Below are positions 1 to 19,397 of a stretch of 22,170 nt of DNA, piece by piece (position 1 is the stretch's first letter; every line of letters starts with the position of its first letter). The notes below the pieces were generated by a model. The model was not told the origin of the DNA. It saw only the letters and a list, made by a program, of their open reading frames with translations, and searched no databases. Where the stretch lies: the IMG/VR virus record IMGVR_UViG_3300035698_032684, positions 1 to 22,170 of that record; one strand, 5' to 3'. Both the position numbers and the translations under genes were made by a program. The stretch comes from a virus.

Positions 1-179
1 AACTTAAAGGATCAAAACGCAAAAGCCCTGAGCGTTCCACTGCAATACGCAAAGCGATAGAAGCTACAATGTGGTTAGGAATGGATTTAAAAGCAATTGG
101 CACACCTAACCCCTATCCAGAATCTAAAAATCCTAACAACACAACAGTTGAACCAACTGCTGACGGATTGAAACTGTAA
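1..179 (+). CDS. Acb2/Tad1-like cyclic nucleotide sponge, C-terminal part (5' end outside window)
   Basis: The window opens inside a reading frame (first full codon at base 3) that ends at TAA 177-179 and leaves 58 residues. The visible part has a helix with ERSTAIRK followed by EATMWLGMDLK, then PNPYPESKNP and a tail ending EPTADGLKL. I recognise this as the C-terminal part of the Acb2/Tad1 helical hairpin family of phage proteins. Known members bind and sequester cyclic di- and trinucleotides (CBASS signals) and, in Tad1, the cyclic ADP-ribose isomers made by Thoeris, so they protect the phage from abortive defence. The N-terminal half, which holds part of the ligand pocket, is not visible. 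The call rests on remembered family patterns, not a search. The next gene, a RyR-domain protein, begins 43 bases downstream and may belong to the same functional unit. Confidence 0.6.
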   Translation, partial: LKGSKRKSPERSTAIRKAIEATMWLGMDLKAIGTPNPYPESKNPNNTTVEPTADGLKL

Positions 180-222
180 ACATGTGAATAAAAGCCAAAT
201 ATTATTCAACTAACCTTATATC

Positions 223-579
223 ATGAAATTAGAAAAAGAATTACTGATCAATTACATCGCCAAAGCATGTCATGAGGCTAATCGTGTTTGGTGTCAAGCG
301 AATGGAGACAGCACTCAAAAGCATTGGGATGAAGCTGAGCAGTGGCAAAGAGACTCGGCAATAAGTGGTGTAAAGTTCCGATTTGACAACCCGGAAGCAG
401 GTCATGATGCGCAGCACAATGCCTGGATGGCTGAAAAAATAAATGAAGGTTGGGTATATGGGAAACTTAAAGACGCTGTAAAGAAAACACATCATTGCCT
501 TGTGGCTTTTGAAAACCTGCCTGAATTTCAGCAAAAAAAAGATGCACTCTTTGTAGCTGTGGTTGACTCATTGAAATGA
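223..579 (+). CDS. RyR-domain protein
   Basis: The 118-residue product is essentially one RyR domain (the repeat first described in ryanodine receptors, PF02026). Landmarks in order are AKACHEANR (13-21), the W-rich HWDEAEQWQRDSAISGV (34-50), HNAWMAEK with H65 and W68, GWVYGKLKD (76-84), the K-x-HHC stretch (88-92) and the ENLPEFQQKKD run (97-107). All the usual conserved aromatic and His positions appear to be present, so it should fold. Stand-alone RyR proteins occur in many Bacteroidota phages and their role is not settled. A nucleotide or ADP-ribose-type ligand has been proposed for prokaryotic RyR domains. Its stop overlaps the next start (ATGA, 576-579), so it is translationally coupled to the pre-terminase gene. 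The upstream neighbour looks like a nucleotide sponge, which makes a signalling-ligand role plausible, but this is inference. Confidence 0.85.
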   Translation: MKLEKELLINYIAKACHEANRVWCQANGDSTQKHWDEAEQWQRDSAISGVKFRFDNPEAGHDAQHNAWMAEKINEGWVYGKLKDAVKKTHHCLVAFENLPEFQQKKDALFVAVVDSLK

Positions 580-1151
580 TTAAGTTTGATATAAGCGAAA
601 GGGGTGAGCTGATCGTTGACGCAAAAGTGTTGACCATTAGTGCCTTTAACAACATTTATCGTTCAGACAAAGCTCCAAACAAAAAAAATGCACTTGACAT
701 GCTTCGGTATGTAATGTTCATGGGAGACATAACCGAAGATAATCCTCATCGTGACATTAACTTTTTCCTAAGAGAGCCTTACGCAAAAAAAGACGTTTTT
801 GGAGATGATAAGTATGTTTTTTCCAAAAAGAACCAAGAGCTGATTGATGAAGCCATTCTCTGGTATGCAACCTTAAACAAGGATTGCGTAGACAGATTGT
901 CCCAGGGGATAAACAAACAGATTGACGAGTTGAGTCATCTGTTAAATACTTCTGAGCAGATGACTATGAAAAACTACAAAGACCGGGTAGACCTGTTAAA
1001 AGACATTAAATCTCTTTTGATATCCAAGGTTCACACGGACGAGTTTGTAGAAAAGACCAAGAAAAAAGCCAAGACCAAAGGCGACAAAGCGAGATCACCG
1101 ATAGAAATGGGATTAATCCTTTTCACATCGGACAATGAGCCAGAACAGTAA
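576..1151 (+). CDS. Unknown helical protein upstream of terminase; possible small terminase
   Basis: The product has 191 residues. The N-terminal half contains ALDMLRYVMFMGDITEDNP (about 40-58) followed by a predicted helical region; residues about 105-150 are rich in Leu, Lys and Asp and look like a coiled coil. The C-terminus is very basic (KKKAKTKGDKAR, near 163-174). It overlaps the RyR gene by 4 bases and the large terminase by 17 bases, so the three are coupled. A small helical protein with a coiled coil directly before the large terminase fits a small terminase subunit, but no helix-turn-helix is evident and I cannot assign the function from sequence alone. Confidence 0.75.
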   Translation: MIKFDISERGELIVDAKVLTISAFNNIYRSDKAPNKKNALDMLRYVMFMGDITEDNPHRDINFFLREPYAKKDVFGDDKYVFSKKNQELIDEAILWYATLNKDCVDRLSQGINKQIDELSHLLNTSEQMTMKNYKDRVDLLKDIKSLLISKVHTDEFVEKTKKKAKTKGDKARSPIEMGLILFTSDNEPEQ

Positions 1152-3141
1152 CAAAATAATATTGCCATCACAGTTTTTTGAAGCGCGAACCCCACCAAAG
1201 GTAGACCTGTTCAGCTTTCAGAACATTGAGTTTTATAAAGAGCACCTGCATTACTGTGATGTGGGAAGAACAGTCAATGGGATGCGGTTTACCGGAGATT
1301 ACTACTGGTACATGAATTTTTTTCCCATCAACATGCTTAAAAAAGACAAGTATGGCAATATTACTGACGAGGAAATTATGAGCTATGCTTATCCTTCGCA
1401 GGAAGACGATTACTTGTTCAAGCAATTTGAAGAAGCTAAACAGGATGGCAAATATCCTTTTTTTATCACAGCCAGAGCTTTTGGAAAAACTTTCGCCGTT
1501 ATTTCCAAAGCGGCAAAAAACTATTACACCAAGCCTCTTTCACACAATTACATTACTGCGTCCATCTCTAAACATGCTGACGTAACTTTTAAAAAGCTCA
1601 GTGAGTCTATGGAAAGTCTGGAAAAACTTCACCCGACACTGCGGATGAAAAAGCTTTACAACTCTCCTGATTATGTAGAGTCAGGAGAAGACATTGTCAC
1701 TGCTGACGGAAACAAAGAGCGTATTGGTCACAGAAGCAAACTGGAAAAAATCATTTATGGCGATGATGCCGGTAAGACCAGGGGATCCAGACCAAAGTTT
1801 CACCTCTTCGAAGAAGTGGGATCATGGTCAGGTTCTGCTTCTCTGAAAAAATGCTATGCAGAATCTCACGGGTCTTTCAAGCGTGGCTCAACACTGACCG
1901 GCGAGGTGTTTTTTATCGGTACAGGAGGACAGATGGAGTCAGGAGGATCAGAAGATGCCAAAGATATGTTTTACAATCCCGATGCTTTTAATCTTTATAA
2001 AGTCAAGGGTTGGTCAGACAGACCTACTGCCATATTTATTCCTGCAGAAGCCAAGTATGGAGGATTTTATGAAAACAATTTTGTTTCAGACAGAGTGGGT
2101 GCACGCGCTGCACTTGAAAAAGAGCGTCTCGAAAAAAAGGAAGATGCCCTGGTTTACTATCAGTTTATTCAGGAATATCCTTTTACTCCGGCTGAAGCTT
2201 TTTTGGTTCGAGGTGGCAACAACTTCAATACCGACATTCTTGCAGGACAAAAGCTTGCGATTACCGAGTCTGGAAAAAGTCTTGGCAAACTCTGTAAACT
2301 TCACTGGAAACGCGAAGAATCAAAAATCATCGGGGTTGAAATTGAATATACAGACAAAGGAAATATCTGGCTGCTTGAAGAACCTGACTTGGATGAAAAT
2401 GCCAATGTGTTTAAGAACCTGTATGTTGGCGGTTACGATGGGATTGACCTTGGAACTCAAGACACTGCCTCTGGTCAGGGTTCTGAGGGAGCACTTACCA
2501 TTAAAAAACGAATGAGGCCCGGCTCAGTTACCAGTAACAGGTATGTTTGCATTTACAAAGACAGGCCAAAGGACATTGATGATTTTTATGAAAACGCATT
2601 GATGATTGTGACGCTTTTTGATTGTAAAATAAACATCGAAGACACCAAGCGGGCAATTGTTGCATACTTCAAACAGCGAAAAGCCTTTGACCGATTTATG
2701 AAACGCCCAAGAATAACATTGACAGCGGATCCGACAAACGATCAGAAAACCCATTTGATCGGAACAACAGCAACTCCAAAAAACTTTGCTTACGGAGAAC
2801 TTTACACCGCAACTTACATCAAGGATTACGGTCATGACATCTGGTACCTTCCCATGCTTGATCAGCTCATTGATTTCAATATGCAGAACCGAACCAAGTT
2901 TGACTTGGTCATTGCCATGTTTATGACTGAAATCGGAGATGATGAATTGTTTGATCAGCAAATCAAGTCTACCAAACCCGCAGCATTTGATTTCCATAAA
3001 TATGGTTATTACACTGATATGAATAATATCAGAAGGTATGGTCTGCTTCCTGAATACCAGCAAAATCCTATGGGTGAGCTGATTTTTGCGCATGCTTACG
3101 GACAACGGAAAAGCAACGTTTTATACCTCGATCAAGAGTAG
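1135..3141 (+). CDS. terL: Terminase large subunit (TerL)
   Basis: This is the DNA-packaging motor, with an ATPase domain that drives DNA into the prohead and a nuclease domain that cuts it. In the 668 residues, the Walker A-like loop is TARAFGKTFA (112-121), the Walker B-like strand is KFHLFEEVG (221-229) with E226/E227, and a coupling-type motif FFIGTGGQMESGG follows (259-271). YPFTPAEAF (348-356) is the usual linker signature of large terminases. The RNase H-like nuclease shows acidic residues in YDGIDLG (D435, D438), in TADPTND (D531) and in FDLVIAMFM (D589). The P-loop is degenerate compared with GxxGxGKS, as in many terminases. It begins inside the preceding gene and is followed after 39 bases by the portal. 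It is the only complete gene here that ends in TAG. Confidence 0.95.
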   Translation: MSQNSNKIILPSQFFEARTPPKVDLFSFQNIEFYKEHLHYCDVGRTVNGMRFTGDYYWYMNFFPINMLKKDKYGNITDEEIMSYAYPSQEDDYLFKQFEEAKQDGKYPFFITARAFGKTFAVISKAAKNYYTKPLSHNYITASISKHADVTFKKLSESMESLEKLHPTLRMKKLYNSPDYVESGEDIVTADGNKERIGHRSKLEKIIYGDDAGKTRGSRPKFHLFEEVGSWSGSASLKKCYAESHGSFKRGSTLTGEVFFIGTGGQMESGGSEDAKDMFYNPDAFNLYKVKGWSDRPTAIFIPAEAKYGGFYENNFVSDRVGARAALEKERLEKKEDALVYYQFIQEYPFTPAEAFLVRGGNNFNTDILAGQKLAITESGKSLGKLCKLHWKREESKIIGVEIEYTDKGNIWLLEEPDLDENANVFKNLYVGGYDGIDLGTQDTASGQGSEGALTIKKRMRPGSVTSNRYVCIYKDRPKDIDDFYENALMIVTLFDCKINIEDTKRAIVAYFKQRKAFDRFMKRPRITLTADPTNDQKTHLIGTTATPKNFAYGELYTATYIKDYGHDIWYLPMLDQLIDFNMQNRTKFDLVIAMFMTEIGDDELFDQQIKSTKPAAFDFHKYGYYTDMNNIRRYGLLPEYQQNPMGELIFAHAYGQRKSNVLYLDQE

Positions 3142-3159
3142 TCTTATTATGATTAGATT

Positions 3160-3171
3160 GTATAATTATTA
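3160..3171 (+). promoter_or_regulatory. Leader motif GTATAATTATTA before the portal gene
   Basis: The 12-base stretch ends 9 bases before the portal ATG and is 11/12 identical to 5483-5494 before the scaffold. The bases that follow (TACCTTCG at 3170-3177) match the Bacteroides -7 consensus TAnnTTTG at five of its six fixed positions. No clear -33 box is seen at the right distance. It may be a promoter or only an A/T-rich unstructured leader. Confidence 0.25.
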
Positions 3172-3180
3172 CCTTCGGTT

Positions 3181-5421
3181 ATGGATACTTCCATTACAGA
3201 AAAGCCCATTTTAAACGACGGTGAGACCAGAGGCCTCCAATACCTGAAAGATCAAGTTGATTATACCATTGCATCCTGCAATGTAACAGGGAAAGACACG
3301 GTTGATCAGGCCTACAAAATACGCAATGGCGAAATGCCGATGGAAGAGTATGCTTATCTAAAAGATGCAAACGGCATTGAGCTTCCTTCTCAGGTTCGAC
3401 ACATTCCGGTATTGAAATCGATGTTTGATGTGTTACTCGGGGATGAAGCTTTACAGCCTATTCCCTGGAGAATCAAGTGCAATGACAACGGCAGCATTGA
3501 AACAATGATGAAAGAACGTCATCAGAACTTTATATCTGGTTTGGACAAAATAATTCTTGACTCCATAAAAAATCTGGTGTCAGAGGTCAACTATACCAAA
3601 AAAGATCTTTCCCCAATAACAAGTCTTGCCAGTAAAACTGATTTTGCAAAACGCCAGCAGGATTACAGTCAGTATAAAACTTACCTGGAAATCTACAGTC
3701 AAAAAGTAATGCAGGGAGAATATGACGCACTCAACATGCGTCATAGTTTTTCTGTGATGTACAACGACATGATTACTACCGGCGAAGAGTATTACCAGTC
3801 CAAAGTAGAAGCCAAAGGCAGGCCTCCCCGCTTCAGGTCCATCAATCCAAAGTACTTGTTCTACACAAAGACTGAAGATATATTTTTTATCAAAGATTGT
3901 GATCGCGTGGTTTATGTGGAAGAAATTCCCGCTTCGGTTGTTTTTGCAAAACACGGCCATAAGTTCAGCAAAGAAGAACGCGAGATTTTTTTTCACAATT
4001 ATGCCAAAGGGATCAGTCAGGACGATACCAGACTGATTGCTTCCAAAGACGGTATTGTTGAAGGCAGCTTTGGTAACTTTTCGGCAAAAAACCTTAAATC
4101 CGATCTGGTTAAAATTTACAATGTTGAGTGGAAAGAAAACACAAAGATTGAATCTGTTGCAGAAGACGAAATTGTTATTTCCGGTAAAAAGAAAAAAGTA
4201 AAAGAAACCATGACCCGCTATCGGTTAGACCGATACGAGGGTCTTCGAATCGGTGAAAAAATATTTGTGGACATAGGCAAATCAACATGTGTCACCCGAA
4301 CAAGCAGAGAACCATGGAACGTATCACTGACCTTTAACGGATCCTGCTACAACGACAGAAACGGAAAACCATTTTCATTGGTACTTGCCACAAAACAACT
4401 GGCCATGAAAATTGATGTGTTGCATTACTTTTTGGAAAACATGATTGCTGTTTCCGGAACAAAGGTAATTCCTGTTTCATTTCCCGACATCCCGACCTGG
4501 CTTGATGAAAATGATCCGATCAACCGGGTAAAAAAGTGGATGGGACATTTAAAAAACGGCGCAATGCTGTTAGACTACTCTCAAGACGGTGCTGGAAAAT
4601 TTCAGAATTATTCTGCCTATGACCTGACAATTTCAAACTCGATCAAAACAATCGCCGATATTATCGTCATGCTTGAAGAAACTGCTGCCAAGATTACCGG
4701 AGTAGGCAGGCATCGTTTGGGTCAAATGCTTCAAAAAGACGGGAAGGGAGTCACTGAAAATGCAATTGAGCAAAGCTCAGTAGTTACTCAGCCAATTATT
4801 CAAGTTCACAACGTGGTCATGAAAATGGCGCTGACCGATCATTTGAACAATTGCAGAATAGCTTTTCCGGATGGTTACCCGGGATTGTTTTCGCTTGGAA
4901 ATTATGGCCGTGAGATTTTCAGCAAAGGTCATCAACAGTTTGTTCTTGCTGATCTTGATGTAACTGTTTCAGACAGTTCTCAGACAATCAAAGCTATTGA
5001 AGAAATAAAATTACTCAGCAAAGAACTTGCAATTGCAACAGGGGTAAATACGTCATTCTTGTTTGATATAATTGGAAACGAATCTCTTTCTCATGTAAAA
5101 GAACTTGCTAAAAGCGCGTTTGAATCAGGCAAAGAGGATAAAATCGAAGAGCTTACAACCAAATTGCAGGAGGCTAACGGTCAGCTTCAACAGTATTATG
5201 CAGAATTACAGCGACTTCAACAGTCAGGCGCTGAGCTCAAAGCCCAAGAGCTACAGTTTAAGGACAAAGAACTTGAAGAGAAAACAGCGTTGGAAAAAAC
5301 AAAGCAAAAGATCGATCGTGACTTTAATCTCAGAAAGCTTGAAAACGACAACAAGCGAATTCAGCTTGAGCATCTGCAATTGGCTTATGTTCCCGGTTCC
5401 AAAGAAATACGGAATAATTGA
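3181..5421 (+). CDS. Portal protein
   Basis: This 746-residue protein lies between the terminase and the scaffold/capsid genes, the usual place for the portal, the dodecameric ring at the capsid vertex through which DNA is packaged and ejected. The N-terminal region (about 45-110) has HIPVLKSMFDVLLGDE, and QSSVVTQPIIQVHNVV (about 530-545) lies in a long helical stretch after LGQMLQKDGKGVTENAIE, typical of large crAss-like portals. From about residue 655 to 740 the sequence is a Gln/Lys/Glu-rich coiled coil (for example LQEANGQLQQYYAELQRLQQ), which probably projects into the capsid as a barrel. The length suits crAss-like portals and exceeds the roughly 450-550 residues of simpler portals. The A/T-rich leader 3142-3180 shares a motif with the scaffold leader. 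Confidence 0.88.
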   Translation: MDTSITEKPILNDGETRGLQYLKDQVDYTIASCNVTGKDTVDQAYKIRNGEMPMEEYAYLKDANGIELPSQVRHIPVLKSMFDVLLGDEALQPIPWRIKCNDNGSIETMMKERHQNFISGLDKIILDSIKNLVSEVNYTKKDLSPITSLASKTDFAKRQQDYSQYKTYLEIYSQKVMQGEYDALNMRHSFSVMYNDMITTGEEYYQSKVEAKGRPPRFRSINPKYLFYTKTEDIFFIKDCDRVVYVEEIPASVVFAKHGHKFSKEEREIFFHNYAKGISQDDTRLIASKDGIVEGSFGNFSAKNLKSDLVKIYNVEWKENTKIESVAEDEIVISGKKKKVKETMTRYRLDRYEGLRIGEKIFVDIGKSTCVTRTSREPWNVSLTFNGSCYNDRNGKPFSLVLATKQLAMKIDVLHYFLENMIAVSGTKVIPVSFPDIPTWLDENDPINRVKKWMGHLKNGAMLLDYSQDGAGKFQNYSAYDLTISNSIKTIADIIVMLEETAAKITGVGRHRLGQMLQKDGKGVTENAIEQSSVVTQPIIQVHNVVMKMALTDHLNNCRIAFPDGYPGLFSLGNYGREIFSKGHQQFVLADLDVTVSDSSQTIKAIEEIKLLSKELAIATGVNTSFLFDIIGNESLSHVKELAKSAFESGKEDKIEELTTKLQEANGQLQQYYAELQRLQQSGAELKAQELQFKDKELEEKTALEKTKQKIDRDFNLRKLENDNKRIQLEHLQLAYVPGSKEIRNN

Positions 5422-18351: not shown

Positions 18352-19170
18352 AAATTATGCGAATTTATCCAACAAGAAAAACAGACTCAGAAGCAGAACT
18401 TGCTCTAAAGAAAAGAAATGAATTAGGCTCTGTTTTAATTAATTCAAAAAAAACTAAAGTAAAAAACCCTTTTATAATTGCCCCTAATTTAGAAGGTACA
18501 ACTCCACAAGGCTTTCTACATGATTGGGTTAATAGCTCTGAATATAAAAAGAGATTGGATACTAATCAATATCAAAATGCAAATGAAGTTGTTAGTAAAC
18601 GAAATAGAAATTTAAAAGGTACTGTATTCAACCCTGTCACTAATGGAGGATCTATAGCCAGAGTAGCTGGAAAATATGGAGGGAAAAGCATTATAGATAT
18701 TGATACGCAACAGGCTAAAGAATATGGCAAAGAAACAGTTCAGGCTCACGAATTATCACATACCATTGGAGCATCTAATCCAGGATTCTATGATACTTCT
18801 ATGAATGAAGTTGAATACAACATGTTTAAAAAAGCTAATATAAATAGATCTTCAAATGCTCATGATGCTATGGGTGCTGAAATGAAAGCAGATTTAGATG
18901 CAAATAGATTTAATTTATTTAAAAATAAAATATATGACGTTAAGAAAGGAATACCTTTTAATCAAAACGACCTTTTAAAAACTAAGAAAGCTTTAAAAGG
19001 AGACGTTACTTTTGATAGATTAATAAAGCAGACTGGTAATGAGAACTATATCAAGTTAATGAATAGTATCGCTAGCAATAAACCTAAATTAATTCCTGTA
19101 GCACAAAAAGGAATGAGTTTAAAATCTAAGTTGATTCCAAAGACTACAGAAAGCATTCCAAAACAGAATA
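18352..19170. other. AT-rich compositional island within the cargo region
   Basis: Sample 60-base lines in this stretch run from about 20% to 35% G+C by hand count (20% at 18421-18480), whereas 19201-19260, still in the same gene, is about 47%. Codon choice also differs, with many TTA, AGA and AAT codons. The left edge falls right after the stop of the 213-residue gene; the right edge is approximate. The pattern points to recent transfer. No terminal repeats or integrase are visible. Confidence 0.6.
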
Positions 19171-19397
19171 AAACCCGGATTTATAAAAATGGAGGTGCGT
19201 TGTTTCAAACCAGCGAAGGGAAAGAACCCATACCGCTTCAGGGAGAAGAACGGGTATATTCCATCACCGACACCAAACAAATGATCAAGTTGTCTCTCAA
19301 TGCCAAAACTGACAAAGACTTGATTGAGCTGGGGAAATTCTTTTGTAAGGCAACCAAAAAGCAGGACAAAAGAAAGCCTGAATACACAAATACCTAA
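18357..19397 (+). CDS. Zincin-type metallopeptidase fused to a C-terminal cargo tag
   Basis: The 346-residue protein carries a zinc-binding motif HELSH (131-135) in QAHELSHTIG. A plausible third ligand is E175 in GAEMKADLDANRF, giving HExxH plus a Glu about 40 residues on, as in gluzincin-like peptidases. E132 would be the catalytic base. A helix with HDWVNSSEYKKRL (55-67) precedes the core. Residues 276-346 form a separate basic module with YKNGGALF (276-283), GEERVYSITDTKQMIK (296-311) and LIELGKFFCKA (322-332), similar to the end of the 250-residue protein upstream. The first part, to about base 19170, is much richer in A/T than its neighbours, whereas the module is not. I infer a virion-carried peptidase that may cleave a host or phage protein after entry. 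The substrate is unknown. Confidence 0.75.
   Translation: MRIYPTRKTDSEAELALKKRNELGSVLINSKKTKVKNPFIIAPNLEGTTPQGFLHDWVNSSEYKKRLDTNQYQNANEVVSKRNRNLKGTVFNPVTNGGSIARVAGKYGGKSIIDIDTQQAKEYGKETVQAHELSHTIGASNPGFYDTSMNEVEYNMFKKANINRSSNAHDAMGAEMKADLDANRFNLFKNKIYDVKKGIPFNQNDLLKTKKALKGDVTFDRLIKQTGNENYIKLMNSIASNKPKLIPVAQKGMSLKSKLIPKTTESIPKQNKTRIYKNGGALFQTSEGKEPIPLQGEERVYSITDTKQMIKLSLNAKTDKDLIELGKFFCKATKKQDKRKPEYTNT

Follow-up and report, generated by a model that had tools for sequence, protein, structure and literature searches.

A putative multi-signal sponge cassette, a probable Acb4-hairpin gene beside a RyR-domain gene, in a crAss-like phage

Features of the Locus

The window analysed here, the whole 22,170-base stretch that makes up positions 1 to 22,170 of IMG/VR virus record IMGVR_UViG_3300035698_032684, opens with two small adjoining genes: the C-terminal end of a gene that carries an Acb2/Tad1-type helical hairpin and is cut by the contig start, and a complete RyR-domain gene of the RyDEP (RyR-domain Defense Evasion Protein) type. 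The terminase genes follow directly downstream of the pair, and the stop codon of the RyR gene runs into the start codon of the next gene (ATGA, 576-579). Assignment to a crAss-like, gut-type phage rests on three genes: the capsid gene matches PF23898 (Crass_capsid), the product of a second, 1,362 aa long, resembles the crAss muzzle protein (E = 1.9e-36), and the terminase shares 23-28% identity with Crassvirales-type and Flavobacterium phage terminases. The full first gene could be recovered through a relative, IMGVR_UViG_3300037343_000384 (hereafter L003), whose DNA is 93% identical to window positions 1-575 and which encodes the complete protein of 198 aa. Residues of the RyR protein were mapped by alignment with gp78 of phage DyoEdafos, the RyDEP founder, and their conservation was scored over 44 homologues. 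The features are as follows.

3 to 179, plus strand: C-terminal 58 codons of the first, putative sponge gene, cut by the contig start (open reading frame with 97% amino-acid identity to L003:659-1255)
24 to 89, plus strand: second helix of the hairpin, SPERSTAIRKAIEATMWLGMDL, the segment common to Tad1 and Acb2 (invariant residues, Tad1 matches in PDB, helix prediction for L003)
108 to 176, plus strand: conserved C-terminal tail, NPYPESKNPNNTTVEPTADGLKL, which marks this hairpin subfamily (conserved in 39 aligned homologues)
223 to 579, plus strand: RyDEP-like RyR-domain protein of 118 aa, a predicted binder of 2' and 3' cyclic ADP-ribose (2'/3'cADPR) (PF02026, match to PDB 35TM, structure model)
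355 to 357, plus strand: Ser45, at the position of RyDEP Gln54 (gp78 alignment, weaker in this stretch)
415 to 417, plus strand: His65, equivalent to RyDEP His75, catalytic base and ribose contact (gp78 alignment; invariant in the 44 homologues)
424 to 426, plus strand: Trp68, equivalent to RyDEP Trp78, adenine stacking (same alignment; likewise invariant)
490 to 492, plus strand: His90, equivalent to RyDEP His100, phosphate contact (same alignment; likewise invariant)
541 to 543, plus strand: Asp107, equivalent to RyDEP Asp117, catalytic acid (same alignment; likewise invariant)

A RyR-Domain Protein of the RyDEP Family

That the second gene encodes a whole RyR domain, as a preliminary description of this DNA had proposed, is well founded. 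Its product matches PF02026 at E = 4.7e-10 and 40 bits, against a curated cut-off of 27.4, and it matches PDB 35TM, the accession given for the crystal structure of a phage RyDEP (PMC13232231), at E = 3.3e-7 as a single sequence and 6.7e-13 as a profile; animal ryanodine receptor R12 structures and a B. thetaiotaomicron RyR protein are also matched by sequence. The AlphaFold2 model has a mean predicted local distance difference test (pLDDT) score of 96.3 and consists of four helices (residues 2-26, 40-55, 63-74 and 101-117), and the top PDB matches of this model in Foldseek are all RyR domains, at probability 1.00. We also considered a piece of an ion channel or a calcium sensor, and dropped both because the fold is that of the R12 ligand domain and not of the channel.

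According to a May 2026 preprint, phage RyR-domain proteins of the RyDEP family bind or cleave the Thoeris signals 2'/3'cADPR: DyoEdafos gp78 cleaves them, six of its eight assayed homologues bind them, and members from Ruegeria and Pectobacterium phages are nanomolar sponges that defeat type I Thoeris in B. subtilis (PMC13232231). The window protein is a member of this family. It shares with the founder the PF02026 match, the predicted four-helix RyR fold, the equivalents of H75, W78, H100 and D117, a similar size and the stand-alone form, and it differs from it in sequence (25% identity), in the serine at the Gln54 position and in its setting, beside a gene of Acb4-hairpin type instead of in a NARP1 operon; the preprint itself mentions NARP1 neighbours, and not Tad1 or Acb2. 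The window protein is 46% identical to the RyR protein of Ruegeria phage V21 and 45% to that of Pectobacterium phage Nepra, two proteins that may be, but need not be, H4 and H7 of the preprint. We infer that the window protein is more likely a sponge than an enzyme, acting by sequestration rather than cleavage.

A First Gene with a Probable Acb4-Type Half and an Acb2/Tad1-Type Hairpin

The earlier assignment of the first gene as Acb2/Tad1-like holds for its hairpin but not for the gene as a plain member of either family. The 58-aa fragment alone has no match in Pfam or PHROG, and its relatives have none in NCBIfam, but homologues that are 48-59% identical to it, in Bacteroides phage BK735P4, Tenacibaculum phage Gundel_1 and the crAss-like cr111_1, score above the cut-off of PF24729 (Acb2_Tad1_hairpin). 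A hidden Markov model of the hairpin, from which both the window and L003 had been left out, still recovers the fragment at E = 8e-23, hhalign aligns the hairpin profile with Acb2/Tad1-like hairpins at 96% probability (E = 1.6e-9), and a PDB search with the profile places Tad1 chains on top (best E = 5e-6). Nine residues are invariant in the hairpin homologues (E10, R11, S12, I15, M23, W24, L25, G26 and M27), and the hairpin is followed by a tail of the pattern NPYPxSxxPxxxxxxPTADGLKL, the two together making up the last ~70 residues of the gene. A model of L003 residues 100-198 has two confident helices, a poorly predicted tail and no strands; in a Foldseek search with the hairpin model, every match was a non-specific helical hairpin and no E value fell below 1, which is evidence neither way. 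Many hairpin relatives are stand-alone proteins of 80-100 aa.

Judged from its sequence, we file the hairpin of the first gene as a member of the Acb2/Tad1 hairpin superfamily that is neither Tad1 nor Acb2, because the beta-sheet of the one and the N-terminal motif of the other are absent. It is homologous to the C-terminal hairpin of Tad1 (PDB 7UAV, 8KBB), the best PDB match of the profile, and shares the PF24729 hairpin with the anti-CBASS 2 sponge Acb2, whereas its PTADGLKL tail is its own and differs from that of Acb2. A plain Tad1 or plain Acb2 gene was rejected as the identity of the first gene, given the absence of the defining N-termini.

The complete gene in L003 instead carries, N-terminal to the hairpin and its tail, a PF13876 (Phage_gp49_66) domain at residues 5-79 that scores 95 bits, a second reason not to class the first gene as a lone Acb2 or Tad1. 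SPO1 Acb4, which forms tetramers and sequesters CBASS signals of the cGAMP type, belongs to PF13876 (PMC11722364). This link came from a PDB sequence search, a literature search for gp49 or Sf6 gene 66 by name having found nothing. A profile of four PF13876 domains without SPO1 Acb4 recovers 9E4W at E = 6e-7, with no other notable match. The guanine-pocket residues K36, F48 and E49 of Acb4 (PDB 9E4W) are kept in L003 as K24, F36 and E37, and are not all kept in the six other PF13876 domains aligned; among the remaining SPO1 Acb4 contacts, I66 is kept, F62 is replaced by Tyr and N63 by Asp, and V56, Y57, T70 and K81 are changed. The L003 domain further differs from SPO1 Acb4, a 96-aa stand-alone tetramer, in being fused to a hairpin.

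Recurrence of the Pairing

The side-by-side placement that the preliminary description had seen once proves to be recurrent. RyR genes are widespread, with at least 563 IMG/VR relatives and 287 phage records. Twelve IMG/VR records hold both a RyR gene and an above-cut-off hairpin, and in 11 of them the two lie within 1 kb of each other or are fused, against 1.3 expected (P = 2e-11) under a null of simple random placement that does not model shared ancestry. HNH endonucleases, used as a control, are within 1 kb of RyR in 2 of the 12, and Tad2 in 4 of 5; counted over the sponge domains near RyR, 21 lie within 1 kb and 4 at 1-3 kb. In the reverse search, which started from the window hairpin, 4 of the 48 other records proved to contain an above-cut-off RyR match, fused or adjacent in all four. 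Partnership with a sponge domain is frequent but not universal, since a sponge domain is fused to RyR or lies no more than 1 kb away in 17 of 79 RyR clusters (95% identity), and none is detectable in the other 62. Among records bearing a crAss capsid and a RyR gene, the partner is Tad2 in L059 and L073, and an Acb2-like gene lies nearby in L035.

Two loci from this survey deserve separate mention. In the crAss-like contig L035, RyR is split into two frames at L035:2827-3330, by a broken gene or a sequencing error, and the Acb2-like gene lies ~0.7 kb downstream. At 2489-3223 in Arthrobacter phage Argan (L189), a PnuC-like nicotinamide riboside transporter gene directly follows the RyR gene, which would fit a connection with NAD metabolism.

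Fusions Among Sponge Domains

The fusions are stronger evidence than the linkage statistic, the null of which ignores shared ancestry. Five of the six possible pairwise fusions among Acb4, the Acb2/Tad1 hairpin, Tad2 and RyR were found, and the sixth pair, hairpin and Tad2, occurs as neighbours.

RyR with hairpin: fused in L042, L063 and L067; in L051 and L131, just below the hairpin Pfam cut-off; also in L144 and L154
RyR with Tad2: fused in L025 and in L075 (Tad2 at 81.5 bits in the same frame)
Acb4 with RyR: fused in L034 and, among isolated phages, in Erwinia Bue1 and Vibrio 1.151.O
Acb4 with Tad2: fused in L194 (L194:2423-3052)
Acb4 with hairpin: fused in L003
Hairpin with Tad2: neighbours in Gundel_1 and L128

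The RyR-hairpin fusions of L063, L067, L131, L144 and L154 carry a PTAD-type tail that is the same as or very like that of the window. Acb2-like genes adjoin RyR genes in L103, L033, L040 and L058, and in L103 Acb2-like, RyR and Acb4 genes follow one another in a row with overlapping ends. Tad2 (PF11195) is a sponge that joins RyR, Acb4 or a window-type hairpin in other phages, although the window itself has none. Because the same domains are fused into single proteins in other phages, these architectures suggest that phages build compound sponges against several immune systems.

Each of these domain families has already been published. In the open-access literature that we searched, we found no description of Acb4, hairpin, Tad2 and RyR fused with one another; the main text of the Acb4 study (PMC11722364) does not contain the word 'fused'.

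Several further loci were recorded along the way. At 3869-4440 in Gundel_1 (L046), the window-type hairpin gene directly adjoins a Tad2-like gene annotated as DUF2829, and Acb4 stands beside Tad2 genes in five IMG/VR contigs (L205, L222, L223, L225 and L262). The RyR proteins of L062, L083, L094 and L099 have long extensions that match no Pfam family and are, by the rule of fusion, candidates for unknown sponge domains.

The Cassette as an Apparent Unit

DNA identity between the window and L003 is 93% over the first 575 bases, up to where the RyR gene ends, and is lower beyond, where the proteins are 37% (next gene) and 50% (terminase) identical. This contrast between the cassette and the flanking terminase makes it appear that the two genes are moved or recombined together, and the sharp boundary suggests that the pair was recently exchanged between related phages. 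Within the RyR gene, the two differ by 20 synonymous and 6 non-synonymous codons out of 119, a ratio that points to purifying selection. A second relative, L004, has a RyR gene at the same genome place, with 75% DNA identity.

Proposed Function and Alternatives

Taken together, these observations make it probable, in our judgement, that the cassette is an anti-immunity device, a multi-signal sponge of a crAss-like phage directed against the nucleotide alarm signals of CBASS and Thoeris. The RyR protein would most likely bind 2'cADPR and 3'cADPR in the pocket lined by H65, W68, H90 and D107 and keep them from their effector. The Acb4-type half of the first gene, if it is built as in L003, would hold CBASS cyclic dinucleotides of the cGAMP kind. 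The hairpin probably forms the core of an oligomer and may add a site for a cyclic trinucleotide or an ADP-ribose signal, by analogy with Tad1 and Acb2, in which cyclic trinucleotides bind at the trimer interface and N-terminal elements help form the pockets for dinucleotides and glyco-cyclic ADP-ribose (gcADPR) (PMC12043709). Both products together could blunt CBASS and Thoeris at once, to the presumed benefit of this phage. The original idea of two complementary binders holds in large part: it gains from the experimental activity of phage RyR proteins on 2'/3'cADPR, from the place of the hairpin in the Acb2/Tad1 superfamily and from the recurrence of the pairing. Of the conditions named beforehand as refuting it, a missing profile match applies to the fragment but not to its relatives, and a lack of recurrence is contradicted by the pairs found. 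The locus departs from the idea in that the first gene, judged by its relative, has an Acb4 domain as well, and in that the N-terminal parts that define Tad1 and Acb2 are absent.

Several points weigh against this multi-signal sponge. The hairpin has no Tad1 N-terminal beta-sheet (L003 has PF13876 in that place, and the stand-alone relatives are too short for one), and window-type hairpins have no N-terminal FGEK..FNP motif, which is present in the Acb2-like genes of L103, L033, L040 and others; because both are missing, the ligand of the hairpin cannot be predicted, and the hairpin could be a mere oligomerisation module. The Acb4 domain lies outside the window and its presence is deduced from one close relative, L003, in which neither T70 nor K81, two phosphate contacts of Acb4, is conserved. 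Two of the eight RyDEP homologues assayed showed no binding (PMC13232231), and in L004, which has the closest RyR relative at the same position (79%), the available 660 bp of upstream sequence contain no detectable sponge partner.

The possibility just raised can be put more strictly: the hairpin would be an oligomerisation handle only, multimerising a fused or bound Acb4 or RyR domain and having no signal pocket of its own. We regard this as unlikely, though worth keeping in mind. A bare helical hairpin with a tail is what the model predicts, the elements that help form the dinucleotide and gcADPR pockets of Tad1 and Acb2 (PMC12043709) are those that it lacks, and it is repeatedly fused to other sponge domains. 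However, its many stand-alone relatives of 80-100 aa have nothing to multimerise, its tail is strongly conserved, and cyclic trinucleotides bind Acb2 and Tad1 at the trimer interface itself (PMC12043709).

A bolder extension of the sponge reading, which we offer as speculation, is that phages shuffle four mutually unrelated domains that bind signals, Acb4, hairpin, Tad2 and RyR, into fusions and adjacent genes, and that in a cassette of the window type the PTADGLKL tail either binds to the RyR or Acb4 domain or completes its pocket, so that one mixed complex of the two gene products would catch CBASS and Thoeris signals, possibly including a signal not yet known.

It is rather doubtful that the window RyR protein is an enzyme like the DyoEdafos RyDEP, hydrolysing the ribose-ribose bond of 2'/3'cADPR to give ADP-ribose. 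The equivalents of the catalytic dyad, His65 and Asp107, are present and invariant, but cleavage was seen in none of the eight homologues besides gp78 despite their high conservation (PMC13232231), the window protein resembles those of the Ruegeria and Pectobacterium phages far more closely than it does gp78, and no NARP1 genes were recognised in the window. Gln54, moreover, is an active-site position that was mutated in the founder study (PMC13232231), and it is also Ser in the V21 and Nepra proteins; because Ser45 aligns with it in the window protein, albeit in a weaker stretch of the alignment, we have not filed the latter as a gp78-like glycosidase.

It is very improbable that the pair belongs to the terminase module, as ligand-sensing regulators or as factors related to packaging, and has no part in immune evasion. 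Their place directly upstream of the terminase genes, the overlap of the RyR stop with the next start codon and the retention of RyR at the same place in L004 would fit such a role; in other phages, however, the same genes are found elsewhere, beside a DNA polymerase gene, a tRNA gene or accessory genes, they are partnered with sponge families that counter defence, the homology with L003 stops exactly where the RyR gene ends, and phage RyR proteins are experimentally anti-Thoeris (PMC13232231). That the adjacency is simple chance in an accessory region of small genes is scarcely credible: such genes do shuffle freely in phages and most RyR clusters lack a detectable partner within 1 kb, but co-occurring hairpins lie within 1 kb far more often than HNH genes (11 versus 2 of 12), gene fusions recur, and every above-cut-off RyR match of the reverse search besides the window is adjacent to its hairpin or fused with it.

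If compound sponges work as the multi-signal reading proposes, a single phage gene could counter more than one defence system, and the architecture would supply a search rule, by which any unknown domain that recurs in fusions with RyR, Acb4, Tad2 or the hairpin becomes a candidate for a new sponge. The pairing also connects RyDEP, a family described in 2026, with genes for the evasion of CBASS.

Other Genes in the Window

Between the RyR gene and the terminase large subunit lies a 191-aa gene (576-1151) without a family match, whose product is 35-37% identical in L003 and L004 and which is, by position, a candidate small terminase subunit. In BK735P4, a hairpin gene stands near a large downstream gene, and we considered synteny with the window; this was rejected, the neighbouring 220-aa gene there being not homologous to window 576-1151. 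At 18357-19397, a 346-aa protein matches the phage tail family phrog_24249 (E = 1e-16) and contains an AHELSHTIG (HExxH-type) motif, a possible sign of a peptidase-like domain.
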